Positions 5,615 to 12,477 of a DNA stretch of 64,000 bases are shown one piece after another. Position 1 is the first letter of the stretch. Each line of letters starts with the position of its first letter. Source of the stretch: an uncultured Pelagibacteraceae bacterium (GTDB lineage Bacteria > Pseudomonadota > Alphaproteobacteria > Pelagibacterales > Pelagibacteraceae); assembly GCA_902581775.1 (NCBI GenBank), contig CACHPJ010000001.1, positions 1-64,000 of the forward strand, given 5' to 3'. The notes beneath the pieces were generated by a model that saw nothing but the letters and a program-made list of their open reading frames with translations, had not been told where the DNA came from and did not search any database. Position numbers and translations under genes: made by a program.

Positions 5615-5643
5615 TTTACTGTTCAATAAATGAACGGTAATAT
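5615..5643 (+). promoter_or_regulatory. Promoter of the MarR/EPS regulator with palindromic operator in the spacer
   Basis: A -35-like TTTACT (5615-5620) and a -10-like TAATAT (5638-5643) lie 17 bp apart. The spacer is almost filled by the inverted repeat GTTCA-ataaa-TGAAC (5621-5635), extended by outer AC/GT matches. The same element at the same spacing precedes the ABC flippase gene (10658-10686). A repressor bound here would block RNA polymerase, so autoregulation by the downstream MarR protein is the natural reading. The promoter and binding protein are inferred. Confidence 0.6.
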
Positions 5644-5653
5644 ATTAAATATT

Positions 5654-5953
5654 ATGAAAGATGATCAAGACCATTTTAATGTTTTAAGGCAAATACATAA
5701 AAAAAAAGAGTCATCCCAAAGGGAATTAGCCAGTGAACTTGGATTTAGTTTAGGAAAGTTAAATTATGTAATGAAAGCTCTACAAGAGAAAGGATTGATA
5801 AAGATTGAAAACTTTAAAAATAATCCAAAAAAAGTAAATTATTTCTACATTCTTACACCAAAAGGAATAGCTACAAAAACTAAACTTACAATCAATTTCA
5901 TGAAAAGAAAAATAAAGGAGTATGAAGAATTAAAAAAAGAAATTGAAAAATGA
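5654..5953 (+). CDS. MarR-family EPS-associated transcriptional regulator
   Basis: A small winged-helix repressor closely resembling the MarR-type EPS-associated regulator family (TIGR04176). Markers are SSQRELASELGFSLGKLNYVMKALQEKGLI for the recognition helices, then NFKNNPKKVNYFYILTPKGI and a C-terminal KRKIKEYEEL helix. I chose the ATG at 5654 (99 residues). The upstream in-frame ATG at 5630 lies inside the operator palindrome and upstream of the expected transcription start, and family members begin close to this point. The mRNA would then have a leader of only a few bases. The stop overlaps the carbamoyltransferase start by 4 bp. It probably controls the polysaccharide genes on either side. 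Confidence 0.82.
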   Translation: MKDDQDHFNVLRQIHKKKESSQRELASELGFSLGKLNYVMKALQEKGLIKIENFKNNPKKVNYFYILTPKGIATKTKLTINFMKRKIKEYEELKKEIEK

Positions 5954-7746
5954 ATATAATTTCAATTGTAGACAGTCATACATCTAGTGCATCTTTAATT
6001 TGTAACGGTTCAGTAGAAGTTTTAGTTAGTGAGGAGAGATTTACCAGAAAAAAAGGTCAAATCAGTTATCCAAAAAAATCTATTGATTATTGTTTAAAAA
6101 TCCTTGGAAAAAGAAAACTTGATCAAGTTTTAGTTAACGGAAAAATAGCAGCAGACCCCTTTACAATAAGGTTAGCTAGATCAAATACTTTCAGTGTCAG
6201 TGATTGGATTAACGAACAATATGAGTATCAAAAACCAATTTTGATAGAGAAAAAAAAAATTTCGAGTATTAAGAGAAAATATTTTTATAAACTACAAAAA
6301 AAAAAGAAATTTCCTCAAACAAACTATCTAAATATAAATACTGTAAACTGGACTTATGATGGTTCTGATTATGATAGAAATTTATTTCGCTCTATTCAGA
6401 TTAAAACATTAAAAAAACATCTTAAAATAGATGATAATAAAATTAAATTTTCTGAACATCACCCATCTCATTCCGCGTACGCATATTTTGCAAGTCCATT
6501 TAGAAAAAAAAAGGCTTTGGTTTTTACGATGGACGCCGTCGGAGAAAAAATTAATGCAACTATATCTATTGTAAAAAATGATAAAATAAGGGAAGTTTTT
6601 AGAACTGGTAATAGTAACCTAGGCAGATTATGGAAGTACATCACTCTTTTATTGAGCATGAAGCCTGATGAACACGAATATAAAGTTATGGGGCTAGCAC
6701 CTTATGCACATGAGAAGTATTCACGAGAAGTTTTAAATTTATTTAAAAAAAATTTTCAAATTACAAAAGGTCATAACTTTATAAATTCTAGCAAAATAAA
6801 AGATATATACTTCTCGTTTCAAAAAATACTTGAACCTTATAGATTCGATAATATAGCTGGAGGCCTTCAGCTTTATACCGAGGAAATAGTTTCTAATTGG
6901 GTAAAATATGCAATAAAAAAATACAAAATCAGTAGAGTAGTTTTTTCTGGGGGTATTTCTATGAATATAAAGCTAAATAAATGCTTATCTGAAATAAGTT
7001 CTCTAAAGGAACTATATGTTGCTGCTAGTGGCGGTGACGAGTCCTTGGCTCTTGGTAATTATTATAATATTTATGGAAATGGCAAAACAAAGCCACTTAA
7101 TAATATTTACTTGGGCCCTGAATATAATGATGATCAAATTTATTCTGCTATAAAAAAAATGAAAAAAAAAACTTATATTGTTAAAAAAAATTTGCCACTT
7201 AAAAAAATTGCTCAATATTTATCCAGAGGTTATATTGGAGCAAGATTTAGTGGAAAGATGGAATTTGGCGCCAGGGCTTTGGGCAATAGAAGTATTGTAG
7301 CAGACCCTTCAAAAATAGAAGTATTAAAAAAAATTAATACTCAAATAAAAAATAGAGATTTCTGGATGCCTTTTACTCCGTCTGTTTTAGACTTTATGGT
7401 AAATAAATATGTTAAAAATCCTAAAAAGATTTTTTCTCCACATATGACTATAGCGTTTGACACTACCGAAAAGGGTAAAGAACATCTTAAAGCTGCAATT
7501 CATCAATATGATTTAACAGCCCGACCTCAAATGCTTAAAAGAAGCTTTAACCCAAAGTATTATGACTTGATAAAAGAATTCCATAGATTAACAGGAGTTG
7601 GGGCTCTGCTGAACACATCATTTAATCTACATGGTTTTCCAATTGTAATGTCACCGAGTGATGCATTACACGTTTTTAATAATTCAGATTTAGATATGTT
7701 AATTTTTGATAATTATTTTATCTTGAGAAATAAAAAACTAATTTAA
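5950..7746 (+). CDS. NodU/CmcH-family O-carbamoyltransferase
   Basis: A 598-residue carbamoyltransferase that transfers the carbamoyl group of carbamoyl phosphate, via carbamoyl-AMP, to a sugar hydroxyl. The N-terminal Kae1-like half carries the metal site EHHPSHSAY (His170, His171, His174) and the phosphate-binding region with FSGGISMNIKLN. The C-terminal carbamoyltransferase domain has the hallmark GKMEFGARALGNRSI segment and ends in LNTSFNLHGFPIV. Length fits the family. It is coupled to the MarR gene by ATGA and converges with the fusion gene, overlapping it by 9 bp. Role as a decorator of the surface glycan is inferred from context. Confidence 0.85.
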   Translation: MNIISIVDSHTSSASLICNGSVEVLVSEERFTRKKGQISYPKKSIDYCLKILGKRKLDQVLVNGKIAADPFTIRLARSNTFSVSDWINEQYEYQKPILIEKKKISSIKRKYFYKLQKKKKFPQTNYLNINTVNWTYDGSDYDRNLFRSIQIKTLKKHLKIDDNKIKFSEHHPSHSAYAYFASPFRKKKALVFTMDAVGEKINATISIVKNDKIREVFRTGNSNLGRLWKYITLLLSMKPDEHEYKVMGLAPYAHEKYSREVLNLFKKNFQITKGHNFINSSKIKDIYFSFQKILEPYRFDNIAGGLQLYTEEIVSNWVKYAIKKYKISRVVFSGGISMNIKLNKCLSEISSLKELYVAASGGDESLALGNYYNIYGNGKTKPLNNIYLGPEYNDDQIYSAIKKMKKKTYIVKKNLPLKKIAQYLSRGYIGARFSGKMEFGARALGNRSIVADPSKIEVLKKINTQIKNRDFWMPFTPSVLDFMVNKYVKNPKKIFSPHMTIAFDTTEKGKEHLKAAIHQYDLTARPQMLKRSFNPKYYDLIKEFHRLTGVGALLNTSFNLHGFPIVMSPSDALHVFNNSDLDMLIFDNYFILRNKKLI

Positions 7747-9768
7747 TCTTTTAAAACCTTCATGGCATTGAGGTATTTTATCTAAAATTTCCAAGTTATT
7801 TCCTTTTTCAAAATCTTTAATACTTTTAAAGATTTTATTTAAATGCCAAAAATATTTATTTAAATTTTTCTTATTATGGTAAATCGATAAAAAAATAAGA
7901 TTTGAAGCTAAAATTGAATTTCTAAGCATGATATAAGTAATGTAAGATTTATATTTTAACCATTTTTTTGAGCTTAAAGTAAAACTTGGAATCGCATTCA
8001 AGCCAAAAATATTAATTTTTAGATTATATTTTTTGGCTAATCTTCTCCATCTTTCTTTAATAATCTTTCCTTGTTTAGAAACAATTTTCCATGTTTGTTT
8101 CTCCTCCATTATTTTTAGAACATTCAATGCTGCGACGTAACCAGTTCTTTCAGTCCAAAAAGTACTACTGATAAAAGTGCTTTGGGCGCTATCCATTATT
8201 CTTTTTTTTCCTAAAACTGCAGTAATCGGGTAACCGTTACCTAAAGCTTTTCCTAAAATGCATATGTCAGGTGTAACCTTATACTTTAAATGAATTCCTC
8301 CAAATGTTTCTCTAAAACCACTAGTGCATTCATCAAAAATTAAAACAATATTTTTTCTTTTACAAAAATTGCTTACTTTTTTTAAAAAATTTCCTTTTGG
8401 TGGAAAATTTCTGTGAACTTCCATTTTTACAATTCCAATATTATTTTTTGTGCAAATTTTGTAGAAGCTTTTAATATCATTATACATGAACGGAAAAACA
8501 GTATTTTTTAATTTTTTTGGAACCCCTTCAATTGGTAAGCCTTTCAAAAGATGTGAGTTTAAATTATCATTAGATTTTAAATTAGCAGATAGGTACCAAT
8601 CGTACCATCCATGATATCCGCAAATAGCAATGTTGTCCTTTTTCGTATAAGCTCTTGCAATACGGATTGCTATTGAGTTAGCTTCTCCACCGGTCTTAGC
8701 AAAACGTACCATATCAAAGTTTTTATGCATTTTGACTAATTTCTCAGCTAAAAAAACTTCTTCAGGACAATTAAGCGAAGACATGTTTCCTTTTTTTACA
8801 GTTTTAATAACTTCTCTATCAACTCTCTGATTACAATAGCCAAGAAGATTAGTACCTACACTCATTGTTGAAAAATCTAAAAACTTCTTTCCTTCTAAAT
8901 CCCAAACATGACACCCTTTAGCTTTTGAAAAATACGTAGGCCACCCACCGGGTAGAAACATTTCAGGTCTTTTTGATAACAACATATTACCGCCAGGAAT
9001 AATATTCTTTGCTCGGCTCCAAAGTTTTTGACCAGCATTTATTTTCCCACCAATATTTCTCATAATATTTCTATCGAGTCTAAAGATTTTTTTATTTTTT
9101 TTAAAGAGTTTTATCACATCATTATTTAAAAAATGTTTTTTTTTAATTTCTTTATAAACATCATTTAAAACTTTTAAATCAGAATTTTCATCTATCGTTA
9201 GTCTTATTCTAGAGTAATTTTTTTTTTGAGAAAAATTATATTTTTTTTTTGCATTTTTAATTATATATGGCGTTACATGCTCTTTATCATATAATTTTTT
9301 AGCTTTTGAAAATGCATTTTTTAATTGATCAAACTTAAAAATTTCTACATCAAAACCATCAGGGTATGTAGGAGGATTGACGTTTGAAATATAGTCATAA
9401 TCATTTTTTTTTATTTTTAAAATCATTTCATCTAAGATTTTATAATCTATAAACGGACAATCACCTGTTATTCTAACTACATAATCAGATTTAAGTTTCT
9501 TCGACACTTTATAATATCTTTCAAGAACGTTTTCACTTGAGCCTCTATAAACTTTAAAACCTTTTTTTCTTAACATATTTACTAAAACATCATCTGATTT
9601 TGAATTTGTCGTAGCCACAACTAGATCATCAAAATTTTTTGATTTAAGAACTCTTTCTAACAAAAAAATAATTGCGGGCCTATTTCCAATTTTCTGAATT
9701 ATCTTATTGGGGAACCTAAGTGACCCCATTCTAGCTTGAATTATAATTGTAACCTTTTTCTTTACCAT
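7738..9768 (-). CDS. Fusion: SpsF-type cytidylyltransferase + class-III (GSA-type) aminotransferase
   Basis: A 676-residue two-domain protein. Residues 1-235 are an SpsF-type nucleotidyltransferase (IIQARMGSLRFPNK 10-22, ITGDCPFID near 100-108, IRLTIDENSDL near 188-198). Residues 245-676 are a class-III PLP aminotransferase close to glutamate-1-semialdehyde aminomutase (IIPGG near 256, KTGGEANSIAIRIAR 358-372, YHGWYDW 385-391, FDECTSGFR 478-486 and the Schiff-base Lys507 in ILGKALGNGYP). In surface clusters such proteins are taken to aminate and activate unusual sugars. It overlaps the aldo/keto reductase by 7 bp, so the two form one transcript. No frame interruption is seen. The substrate is unknown. 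Confidence 0.85.
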   Translation of the reverse strand: MVKKKVTIIIQARMGSLRFPNKIIQKIGNRPAIIFLLERVLKSKNFDDLVVATTNSKSDDVLVNMLRKKGFKVYRGSSENVLERYYKVSKKLKSDYVVRITGDCPFIDYKILDEMILKIKKNDYDYISNVNPPTYPDGFDVEIFKFDQLKNAFSKAKKLYDKEHVTPYIIKNAKKKYNFSQKKNYSRIRLTIDENSDLKVLNDVYKEIKKKHFLNNDVIKLFKKNKKIFRLDRNIMRNIGGKINAGQKLWSRAKNIIPGGNMLLSKRPEMFLPGGWPTYFSKAKGCHVWDLEGKKFLDFSTMSVGTNLLGYCNQRVDREVIKTVKKGNMSSLNCPEEVFLAEKLVKMHKNFDMVRFAKTGGEANSIAIRIARAYTKKDNIAICGYHGWYDWYLSANLKSNDNLNSHLLKGLPIEGVPKKLKNTVFPFMYNDIKSFYKICTKNNIGIVKMEVHRNFPPKGNFLKKVSNFCKRKNIVLIFDECTSGFRETFGGIHLKYKVTPDICILGKALGNGYPITAVLGKKRIMDSAQSTFISSTFWTERTGYVAALNVLKIMEEKQTWKIVSKQGKIIKERWRRLAKKYNLKINIFGLNAIPSFTLSSKKWLKYKSYITYIMLRNSILASNLIFLSIYHNKKNLNKYFWHLNKIFKSIKDFEKGNNLEILDKIPQCHEGFKRLN

Positions 9769-10619
9769 GTTTGCGGATTTATAATTTTTGTATTTCTTAC
9801 TTTTAAACTATTATAATTATATTGTATTTTGGACTTTTTGTAATTTAATATTTTTTTTAATTGATCTATACTATCAAATCCAATTATAACTTTATCAACC
9901 TTTTTTCTAGAGAAAGCAAAATTTAAACAACCATCCAAATTTGATAAATTATTTTTTTTTAACCAGTTAAAAAGGATATTAAAATATTTTTTTTTTGATT
10001 TAAATTTTCTTGGAATATTGTTTTTTTTTTTTAATAAAAGTCCCTGTAAGAAAATCGACCTCCCATGTGTTTCTACATTATTTTTTTTTAAAGTATCTAT
10101 CCATCCAGTATCAATAATTCTTTGATCAAATAAATTTATTGGAAATTGCACAATATCTGGTTTAAATTTTTTAAATAAAATTTTAAGTTCATTTGGAGAA
10201 TAAATTGAGAAACCAATTTTTTTTGTTAATTTCAATTTTTTTAATTTTACTAAATTTTTAAATATTTTTTTACCATTTTTGTTTTTAAGATATAAGGGGT
10301 TATGAATTAGTAAACCATAAAGCTTCTTCTTCTTAAGTTTTTTTAATGAGTTTTGAATTTCAAATTCAAGTTGGTGGAATTTATTATGTCTTTTACCTAG
10401 CATTATTTTATTGATAATTGAAAAGTTGCCAGATAGATTTCCAATTTCTTTTTCACAATTATATTTTATCGCTGTGTCAATTAGATTAATTTTTTTTTTA
10501 ATTAATTTTTGGAGAAGCAAATTAATTTGCCCTTTATTAGAGTGCAGTGTTTTTTTATTAATACCGTATCTTTGAGTTAAATTAGCGGTCCCAAATATAA
10601 TTCTTTTACCCAAATCCAT
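9762..10619 (-). CDS. Aldo/keto reductase
   Basis: A 285-residue NAD(P)H-dependent aldo/keto reductase with a TIM barrel. The catalytic tetrad is visible as Asp48 (LIDTA), Tyr53 (IKY), Lys71 (IINKI) and His106 (LLIHNP); IGFSIYSP and VIIGFDS complete the cofactor site. It is the first gene of a two-gene minus-strand transcript with the SpsF-aminotransferase fusion, and overlaps it. Such SpsF/aminotransferase/AKR trios occur in spore-coat and flagellar-glycan clusters, so reduction of a sugar intermediate is likely. It is transcribed away from the flippase gene, with the shared palindrome between them. The substrate is not determined. Confidence 0.83.
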   Translation of the reverse strand: MDLGKRIIFGTANLTQRYGINKKTLHSNKGQINLLLQKLIKKKINLIDTAIKYNCEKEIGNLSGNFSIINKIMLGKRHNKFHQLEFEIQNSLKKLKKKKLYGLLIHNPLYLKNKNGKKIFKNLVKLKKLKLTKKIGFSIYSPNELKILFKKFKPDIVQFPINLFDQRIIDTGWIDTLKKNNVETHGRSIFLQGLLLKKKNNIPRKFKSKKKYFNILFNWLKKNNLSNLDGCLNFAFSRKKVDKVIIGFDSIDQLKKILNYKKSKIQYNYNSLKVRNTKIINPQTW

Positions 10620-10657
10620 ATTTTAATACTCTTTTAATTTAAAAACCTAAATTTTAC

Positions 10658-10686
10658 TTGACTGTTCAATAATTGAACATTACATA
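10658..10686 (+). promoter_or_regulatory. Promoter of the ABC flippase run with perfect 17-bp palindromic operator
   Basis: A good -35 TTGACT (10658-10663) and a -10-like TACATA (10681-10686) are separated by 17 bp. The 17-mer TGTTCAATAATTGAACA (10663-10679) is a perfect inverted repeat about one central base and fills the spacer. The position and half-sites repeat those at 5615-5643 upstream of the MarR gene. Binding here could also affect the divergent aldo/keto reductase gene, whose start lies about 40 bp away. The sequence is direct observation; the regulator is inferred. Confidence 0.65.
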
Positions 10687-10722
10687 ATTAACTTAAATTA
10701 TCAACCAAATAAAGTGAAATTA

Positions 10723-12477
10723 ATGAGTAATTTAAGATATGTTATTGGAAATATCCTAAAAAATAATATTGCACTTTTTATAGCTCTAATTTTAGCTATG
10801 TTAACGGAAGCATTAATGGCAATATCCTCAGTTGTTACAATAGTGCCTTTCGTTGATATAATTTTAAATTCTCAATCTGATAGTCCAAACCAAATTACAA
10901 AATTTTTTAACAATATTTTAAATTATTTTGGTCTCACTGGAAATTATCTAACTTTCGGATTGCTATTTTTTTTTACCAATCTTTTTAAAGCACTTATTTC
11001 TATTAAAGTTTTAGAAATTATTTTAAAGATAAAATTTCAAATAATAAAATCTTTTAGAATGTCCTTGTTAGACGCAAGCTTTTCATCACAGTGGAAATTT
11101 TTCAATGGTTTAGGAAAAGGCAAATTAATGAATTCTTTAAATGAAGAACTTAATAAGATTTCAGATCTTTTTTCAGAACTTGCAACTACAGCTAGTTATT
11201 CTATTCAAATTCTAGCCTACCTTGTATTACCTTTTCTATTTGATTTTAAAATAACAATTTTAGTATTGATTCTTACTTTGGGTCTATTACTTCCATTTAT
11301 CTTTTTAAATAGAATTCTTTTAAGGCTTGGAAAAAAAAATACCGAAGCTGGAAATTTTGTTATTGGTTTGATTAATGAAAGTATTCAAGCTGCTAAAATA
11401 ATAATAAGTTATAGTAATAAAAAAAGAAATTTAGATAAGATCAAAGAAGCCACTGAAGAGTTTAATACAACCGCGATAAAACAAAGGATACTCCAGTCGC
11501 TTTCTAGCAATGCTTTTAAACCAACAGCGATTTTAATTTTGATTTTAATATTTGGGTACGTAGGTGATATTCAATCAAATCTAACTTATTTAGCTGCAAT
11601 ATTTTGGAGTTTATACTCCGCATTACCTTTATTAGCAATTATACTTAGATCCAATTTAAGATTAGCAACATATTTTCCAAGCTTTGAGCAATATAATGAT
11701 TTAAAGATTAAAGCAGTAAAATTCAAATATAATACTGGAATAAAGAAAATAGAAAACATAGAAAATAAAATTCATTTAAAAAATTTGTCATTTCATTATG
11801 ATAATAAAGTAAATATTTTAGAAAATTTAAACTTAGAAATAAAAAAAAACAAAATCACTTCCATTGTTGGAAAATCAGGATCAGGCAAATCAACCATATC
11901 TGATTTATTATTAGGCCTTCAATCTCCCCAAGAAGGAGAAATATTTTTTGATAATGATAAAATTAATAATATTGATATTGAGTTTTTGAGAAAAAAGATA
12001 AGTTTTGTTCCGCAAGACCCAATATTGTTTTATGACACCATTAGAAATAATCTAATGTGGGCTCAAAATAACACATCTGAAGATGATATTATTAAAAGTT
12101 TAAAATTAGCAAATGCTTATGATTTTATTATGACATTACCAAAAAAACTTGACAGTATAGTTGGAGAAAGAGGAAGTGAGCTGTCAGGTGGTGAAAGACA
12201 AAGAATTGTATTAGCCAGAGCTTTCTTAAGAAAGCCCTTTTTGTTAATTCTCGATGAAGCAACTAGCGGTCTTGATAAGATATCTGAAAATATAATTAGA
12301 GACACTCTTAAAGAGCTTTCGAAAAGTACTACAATTTTAGTTATAGCTCATAAATCCAAAATTATAGAGGCAAGCGATTATATCTATGTAATTAATAATA
12401 AAAAAATTATTGAGGAAGGTAATTTCGAAAATCTAAAGAATAAAGATAAATCATTTTTTAACACTCTCAATTACTAA
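10723..12477 (+). CDS. ABC transporter, fused permease and ATPase (MsbA/PglK-like lipid-linked glycan flippase)
   Basis: An exporter half-transporter of about 584 residues. The N-terminal half (to about 320) has around six hydrophobic segments. The C-terminal half is an ABC ATPase with Walker A GKSGSGKST, Q-loop FVPQDP, signature LSGGERQRI and Walker B LLILDEATSGLD. Proteins of this type in glycan clusters (PglK, MsbA-like) flip lipid-linked oligosaccharides or lipid A across the inner membrane. A GTG at 10714 is in frame, but I prefer the ATG at 10723. It heads the plus-strand run from this promoter through 18119 and ends 2 bp before the next gene. Confidence 0.83.
   Translation: MSNLRYVIGNILKNNIALFIALILAMLTEALMAISSVVTIVPFVDIILNSQSDSPNQITKFFNNILNYFGLTGNYLTFGLLFFFTNLFKALISIKVLEIILKIKFQIIKSFRMSLLDASFSSQWKFFNGLGKGKLMNSLNEELNKISDLFSELATTASYSIQILAYLVLPFLFDFKITILVLILTLGLLLPFIFLNRILLRLGKKNTEAGNFVIGLINESIQAAKIIISYSNKKRNLDKIKEATEEFNTTAIKQRILQSLSSNAFKPTAILILILIFGYVGDIQSNLTYLAAIFWSLYSALPLLAIILRSNLRLATYFPSFEQYNDLKIKAVKFKYNTGIKKIENIENKIHLKNLSFHYDNKVNILENLNLEIKKNKITSIVGKSGSGKSTISDLLLGLQSPQEGEIFFDNDKINNIDIEFLRKKISFVPQDPILFYDTIRNNLMWAQNNTSEDDIIKSLKLANAYDFIMTLPKKLDSIVGERGSELSGGERQRIVLARAFLRKPFLLILDEATSGLDKISENIIRDTLKELSKSTTILVIAHKSKIIEASDYIYVINNKKIIEEGNFENLKNKDKSFFNTLNY

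Follow-up and report, generated by a model that had tools for sequence, protein, structure and literature searches.

A short inverted repeat, GTTCA-N5-TGAAC, stands ahead of two genes in a 64-kb stretch of DNA from an uncultured Pelagibacteraceae bacterium (contig CACHPJ010000001.1; this whole stretch is called the window throughout), and we consider it very probable that this palindrome is the operator of a small winged-helix protein of the TIGR04176 family, predicted to act as an autorepressing dimer and to gate several promoters of a surface-glycan island. Comparison of the loci and genomes described below shows the putative operator to be linked to TIGR04176, conserved upstream of its genes across the phylum and restricted to intergenic DNA that carries promoters and adjoins glycan genes. 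The operator is of particular interest because SAR11 bacteria are regarded as poor in transcriptional regulators (PMC13198564).

The palindrome and its probable regulator in the window

The pattern occurs exactly twice in the window, as operator O1 (GTTCAATAAATGAAC, 5621-5635), located in the promoter spacer of the TIGR04176 'MarR_EPS' gene, and as operator O2 (GTTCAATAATTGAAC, 10664-10678), located ahead of an ATP-binding cassette (ABC) flippase gene and forming part of a perfect 17-bp palindrome, TGTTCAATAATTGAACA (10663-10679). Both had been picked out in a preliminary description of this DNA, and both are borne out, the second as a perfect palindrome. Its statement that there is no third copy holds for the window; the genome to which the window belongs, however, carries a further intergenic palindrome, GTTCAAGTATTGAAC (G000:C1:72561-72575), on the same contig and 8.5 kb past the window end, between divergent genes for a methyltransferase and an AT3-SGNH O-acyltransferase. 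The preliminary description mentioned neither this site nor the other features reported below, namely the usual pairing of operators, the extended regulon, conservation throughout the phylum and the NusG-like partner. Copies with one mismatch on two other contigs of the genome (C6 and C10) were set aside, as they lie inside coding sequence.

With one mismatch allowed, 5 matches are obtained in the window against 2.2 expected, the remaining three being unremarkable, and a search tolerating three mismatches gives about as many as in shuffled sequence (16 vs 14.2), which is what might be anticipated if two AT-rich palindromes resembled each other by chance. The two sites are nevertheless exact and conserved in more than 100 homologous promoters, and chance likeness can be given next to no weight.

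The gene behind O1 (5654-5953, forward strand) is an open reading frame (ORF) of 99 amino acids (aa) which matches the NCBIfam profile TIGR04176, a MarR family EPS-associated regulator, over profile positions 2-98 of 105 with 128.4 bits against a cut-off of 88. The MarR domain PF01047 is matched just above its threshold (25.9 bits vs 24.6) and HTH_24 with a higher score (38.1). A relative from an uncultured Pelagibacteraceae bacterium is 58% identical, which agrees with the SAR11 origin assumed in the preliminary description; no relative was found in the viral contigs that were searched. A low-confidence structure model built from the single sequence (predicted local distance difference test score, pLDDT, 66) has the order helix, helix-turn-helix, wing and long C-terminal helix. 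The start codon is likely to be ATG 5654, which fits the homologs, and automatic annotation may begin too early: the start of the longest ORF, ATG 5630, falls within O1.

Association of the putative operator with TIGR04176

TIGR04176 was matched above its cut-off in 101 of the 397 genomes of the window's order, and up to 20 kb were fetched around each gene, giving 101 located genes (those of the window and of locus L037 included) and 1.75 Mb of sequence. GTTCA-N5-TGAAC is present within 150 nucleotides (nt) upstream of 98 of these 101 homologs. Two tandem copies are found at 57 of them, at distances that nearly all fall within 20-25 bp and peak at 23 bp, or about two helical turns; the first is usually situated between a TTTACT or TTGACT -35 element and a TATATT-like -10 element, and the second between the -10 element and the start codon. 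At the window's regulator, only the first copy is present. A reversed control pattern gave 0 matches in the same 1.75 Mb, compared with 193 palindromes. At several loci (L039, L041, L043, L051, L053 and L055) a short inverted element resembling CACTATAG is seen about 50-100 nt before the regulator promoter and may terminate the preceding gene.

Beyond the order, 66 stand-alone homologs from alphaproteobacteria and further classes of the phylum were analyzed, and the palindrome occurs in the 200 nt upstream of 50 of them, where 0.04 would be expected in shuffled sequence; the gap measures five bases in 49 of the 51 sites. The presence of the motif at orthologous promoters, on which the preliminary description had made its proposal depend, is thus seen both inside and outside the order. 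The half-site letters stay the same in genomes that differ widely in G+C content.

Genome-wide pattern searches in the order lead to a similar picture. The strict palindrome, GTTCAANNNTTGAAC, is present in 81 of the 101 regulator-positive and 33 of the 296 regulator-negative genomes, with means of 1.60 and 0.12 sites per genome (Fisher p = 4e-38, shared ancestry being ignored), and within the window's own family in 81/101 and 17/243, respectively. Part of this association is trivial, as a regulator gene brings its own operator with it: the positive genomes have 162 strict sites, of which 92 would be attributable to the regulators' own promoters, as counted over the fetched loci, leaving about 70 elsewhere. 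In the regulator-negative genomes 17 of 18 examined sites fall inside coding ORFs, many of them in one conserved ORF, so that the motif follows the regulator, as had been proposed, and is not scattered through genomes devoid of it. The conserved ORF, mostly 389 aa long, is found in many regulator-free genomes of family f2 of the order (loci L138 and L140-L151), and the GTTCAAGATTTGAAC that it contains is coding sequence mimicking the operator.

It may be argued that the palindrome belongs to some other regulator, such as a global factor or an SOS repressor of the LexA kind, and is linked to TIGR04176 only by accident. In alphaproteobacteria the LexA box, too, consists of GTTC/GAAC words seven bases apart; it is, however, a direct repeat (GTTC-N7-GTTC), while the present site is inverted. 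Moreover, genomes of the order without TIGR04176 are essentially free of the site outside coding sequence, and the targets are glycan rather than repair genes. The most telling sequence evidence comes from a family of the same class (f24) in which a TIGR04176-type winged helix-turn-helix domain forms the N-terminus of a bifunctional ATP sulfurylase/adenosine 5'-phosphosulfate (APS) kinase (L213 1-1815 and L219 1-1797, both on the reverse strand; also L214-L218, L220 and L222-L224). All 11 fused genes keep the half-sites upstream, with a gap of four in all 14 copies (GTTCA-N4-TGAAC). Because the gap varies with the form of the protein, four with the fused and five with the free one, it is probably the TIGR04176 domain and not another protein that reads the site, and an unrelated regulator is very unlikely. 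The fused sulfate-activating enzyme may regulate its own gene.

Apart from those at the regulator genes, 36 more sites were collected in the fetched loci, among them the two in the window's own genome that do not precede the regulator gene, and all 36 are intergenic, although intergenic DNA makes up 10.6% of the sequence by the same gene calls. The genes behind them encode nucleotide-sugar epimerases and dehydratases, cytidylyltransferases, class III aminotransferases, a NeuB synthase, ABC flippases, methyltransferases and radical-SAM enzymes. The joint link of regulator operon and flippase suggested for the window recurs elsewhere: in 10 other loci the regulator is immediately followed by a homolog of the window's flippase gene, and in L083 such a homolog has an operator of its own.

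Promoter layout and probable mode of action

In the window, the -35-like hexamers TTTACT (5615-5620, forward strand, regulator promoter) and TTGACT (10658-10663, forward strand, flippase promoter) adjoin the operator in identical register. In the homologs, the -35 element ahead of the operator is most often TTTACT (31 of 61 promoter-type sites), the -35 and -10 elements are most often 17 bp apart (37 of the 58 promoters in which a -10 could be scored), and the promoter logo reads CTTTACT, GTTCAWnnnWTGAAC and GnTATA in direct succession. The regulator promoter is credible because this spacing and this logo recur across homologs. A generic promoter scan of the window called neither operator site.

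Several observations speak against the interpretation as a shared repressor operator. The -10 hexamers of both window promoters are ambiguous: that of the regulator may be TAATAT (5638-5643, forward strand; 4/6 positions) at 17 bp or the better TATATT (5641-5646; 5/6) at 20 bp, the TAATAT arrangement being repeated in L048, and the -10-like region of the flippase promoter, TACATAAT (10681-10688, forward strand), offers TACATA (3/6) at 17 bp or the better CATAAT (5/6) at 19 bp. Thus the initial claim that both promoters have the same hexamers and 17-bp spacing stands for the -35 element and the operator register but not for the -10 element. In addition, 16 of the 66 homologs outside the order have no perfect site, some of them having near-palindromes, and the strict form is missing in 20 of the 101 regulator-positive genomes, where looser variants are found. 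Finally, placement in the spacer is uncommon at non-regulator targets, at which the operator mostly lies outside it, no more than about 60 nt from the start codon; that the two window promoters match in layout is therefore exceptional.

The position of the operator between -35 and -10 would also suit a regulator that activates its targets, or does both, from the spacer in the manner of MerR. MerR-type activators correct over-long promoter spacers, and the flippase -10 is indeed better at 19 bp. Across the family, however, the spacing is mostly the normal 17 bp rather than 19-20 bp, many regulator genes have a second operator between -10 and start, where a bound protein would block the polymerase, and the protein is MarR/HTH_24-like, with no MerR profile among the matches listed in the NCBIfam and Pfam scans. 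Activation is accordingly unlikely, though not to the degree of the unrelated regulator discussed above, and repression is favoured because the operator is located either in the spacer or between the -10 element and the start.

A role in RNA is less probable still. The transcript of GTTCAAnnnTTGAAC could give a 6-bp stem, and the copies are intergenic, as would be the case for hairpins serving as attenuators or terminators, or for selfish repeats. Copies upstream of the regulator are, however, mostly situated between -35 and -10 and hence untranscribed, the half-sites do not co-vary but keep the same letters whatever the G+C content, no poly-T tract is present, and the regulator-upstream copies occupy fixed promoter positions, unlike mobile repeats. 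Hairpins or selfish repeats are thus highly improbable.

For the repressor, we infer binding of the palindrome by the TIGR04176 protein, dimerisation, repression and release by a signal from the glycan pathway. The regulator, presumably a dimer, would bind the palindrome at its own promoter, either within the -10/-35 region or immediately behind it, and block initiation at its own operon, consisting of regulator and carbamoyltransferase, which would constitute negative autoregulation. The same protein would bind O2 ahead of the flippase, possibly affecting the divergent aldo/keto reductase gene as well, and GTTCAAGTATTGAAC between the methyltransferase and O-acyltransferase genes. Several promoters would in this way come under one protein, resulting in common gating of glycan assembly and export. 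A nucleotide sugar is a plausible guess for the releasing signal, and for the fused form an intermediate of sulfur activation may be proposed as a similar guess.

MarR-type repressors that control their own genes from palindromic operators are well known, and MexR, encoded in the mexR-mexAB region of Pseudomonas aeruginosa, is an example: it represses itself and a transport operon and has paired operators in its own promoter. Half-sites of 5 bp which are 5 bp apart, and paired operators, are common to MexR and the TIGR04176 loci; the MexR half-site is GTTGA rather than GTTCA, and the protein described here differs in being short, at about 100 aa, and lacking the complete dimerisation helices of MarR, and in its targets, which are glycan instead of efflux genes and are distributed over several promoters. 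With the small winged-helix regulators Lrs14/Sta1 and LrpA, the window protein has in common its small size and a weak profile similarity in the DNA-binding region, but it scores far below the cut-offs of these families and lacks an LrpA-type ligand domain. Its assignment to TIGR04176 is much firmer, being well above the curated cut-off and accompanied by a location among surface-glycan genes. No operator or regulon of TIGR04176, nor any mention of this identifier, was found in the literature, of which most subscription papers were outside our reach, and the product name was met in one transcriptome paper; the TIGR04176 operator and regulon therefore appear to be new.

The surface glycans of SAR11 are expected to matter in recognition by phages and grazers. 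A predicted operator with named target promoters makes the hitherto anonymous TIGR04176 testable as a local regulon, and its short sequence can serve as a simple label by which co-regulated glycan genes are recognised in fragmentary genomes of marine bacteria. Hints at what the regulator may sense, or what it may act together with, are given by the fused sulfurylase and the NusG-like partner.

Glycan genes and the probable elongation-factor-like partner

The regulator is followed in the window by a NodU-like carbamoyltransferase gene (5950-7746, forward strand; Pfam Carbam_trans_N/C), and the two are probably co-transcribed because the second overlaps the stop of the first by 4 nt. A leftward run is headed by an aldo/keto reductase gene (9762-10619, reverse strand; Pfam Aldo_ket_red), followed downstream by a cytidylyltransferase-aminotransferase fusion (7738-9768, reverse strand; Pfam CTP_transf_3 and Aminotran_3). 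The start of the reductase gene is 45 nt from O2, which could thus act in both directions. The rightward O-antigen run is headed by the ABC-type glycan flippase (10714-12477, forward strand, with ATG 10723 as a possible start), MsbA/PglK-like according to NCBIfam and Pfam, and contains PseB-type and CDP-glucose dehydratases. Taken as a whole, the polysaccharide locus around the regulator includes a PseB-type dehydratase, a CDP-sugar dehydratase, an O-antigen ligase domain, a glycosyltransferase and the flippase.

Directly after the regulator, 39 of 98 loci of the order have a gene belonging to a conserved family of about 165 aa (e.g., L039, L040, L041, L051, L058 and L082). This family gives a full-length match to a combined profile of NusG and RfaH-like proteins (probability 88, E 3e-6) and a weak one to canonical NusG alone (E 0.047); Pfam scans of 10 members yielded one NusG match, below threshold, and a profile search of the PDB found nothing. 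The partner is probably a divergent NusG/RfaH-like factor. No NusG-like gene is found behind the regulator in the window locus, and outside the order one is the next gene in 6 of 64 cases.

The ops element in the leaders of lipopolysaccharide (LPS) and capsule operons recruits RfaH (PMC6391919, PMC9765446). Its core, CGGTAGC, was found between operator and start codon in 18 of the 66 leaders from outside the order, against 1.33 expected. These ops cores and the NusG-like neighbours imply that elongation, too, is controlled in operons which TIGR04176 genes repeatedly head. The operons targeted by RfaH, LPS and capsule, are of the same kind as the TIGR04176 loci; RfaH, however, works on elongation through a pause site in the leader, whereas the palindrome is proposed to work at initiation. 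It is conceivable, though on balance doubtful, that TIGR04176 and the NusG/RfaH-like protein together form a widespread two-stage switch of glycan islands in streamlined marine bacteria, governing promoter firing and then read-through, with the sulfurylase fusion as the sensor in one alphaproteobacterial group. Examples of ops/JUMPstart-like leaders are provided by L168, L169, L170, L173, L208, L240, L251, L255 and L260, and in all 10 leaders having both an operator and an ops core, the latter lies 49-106 nt behind the operator.

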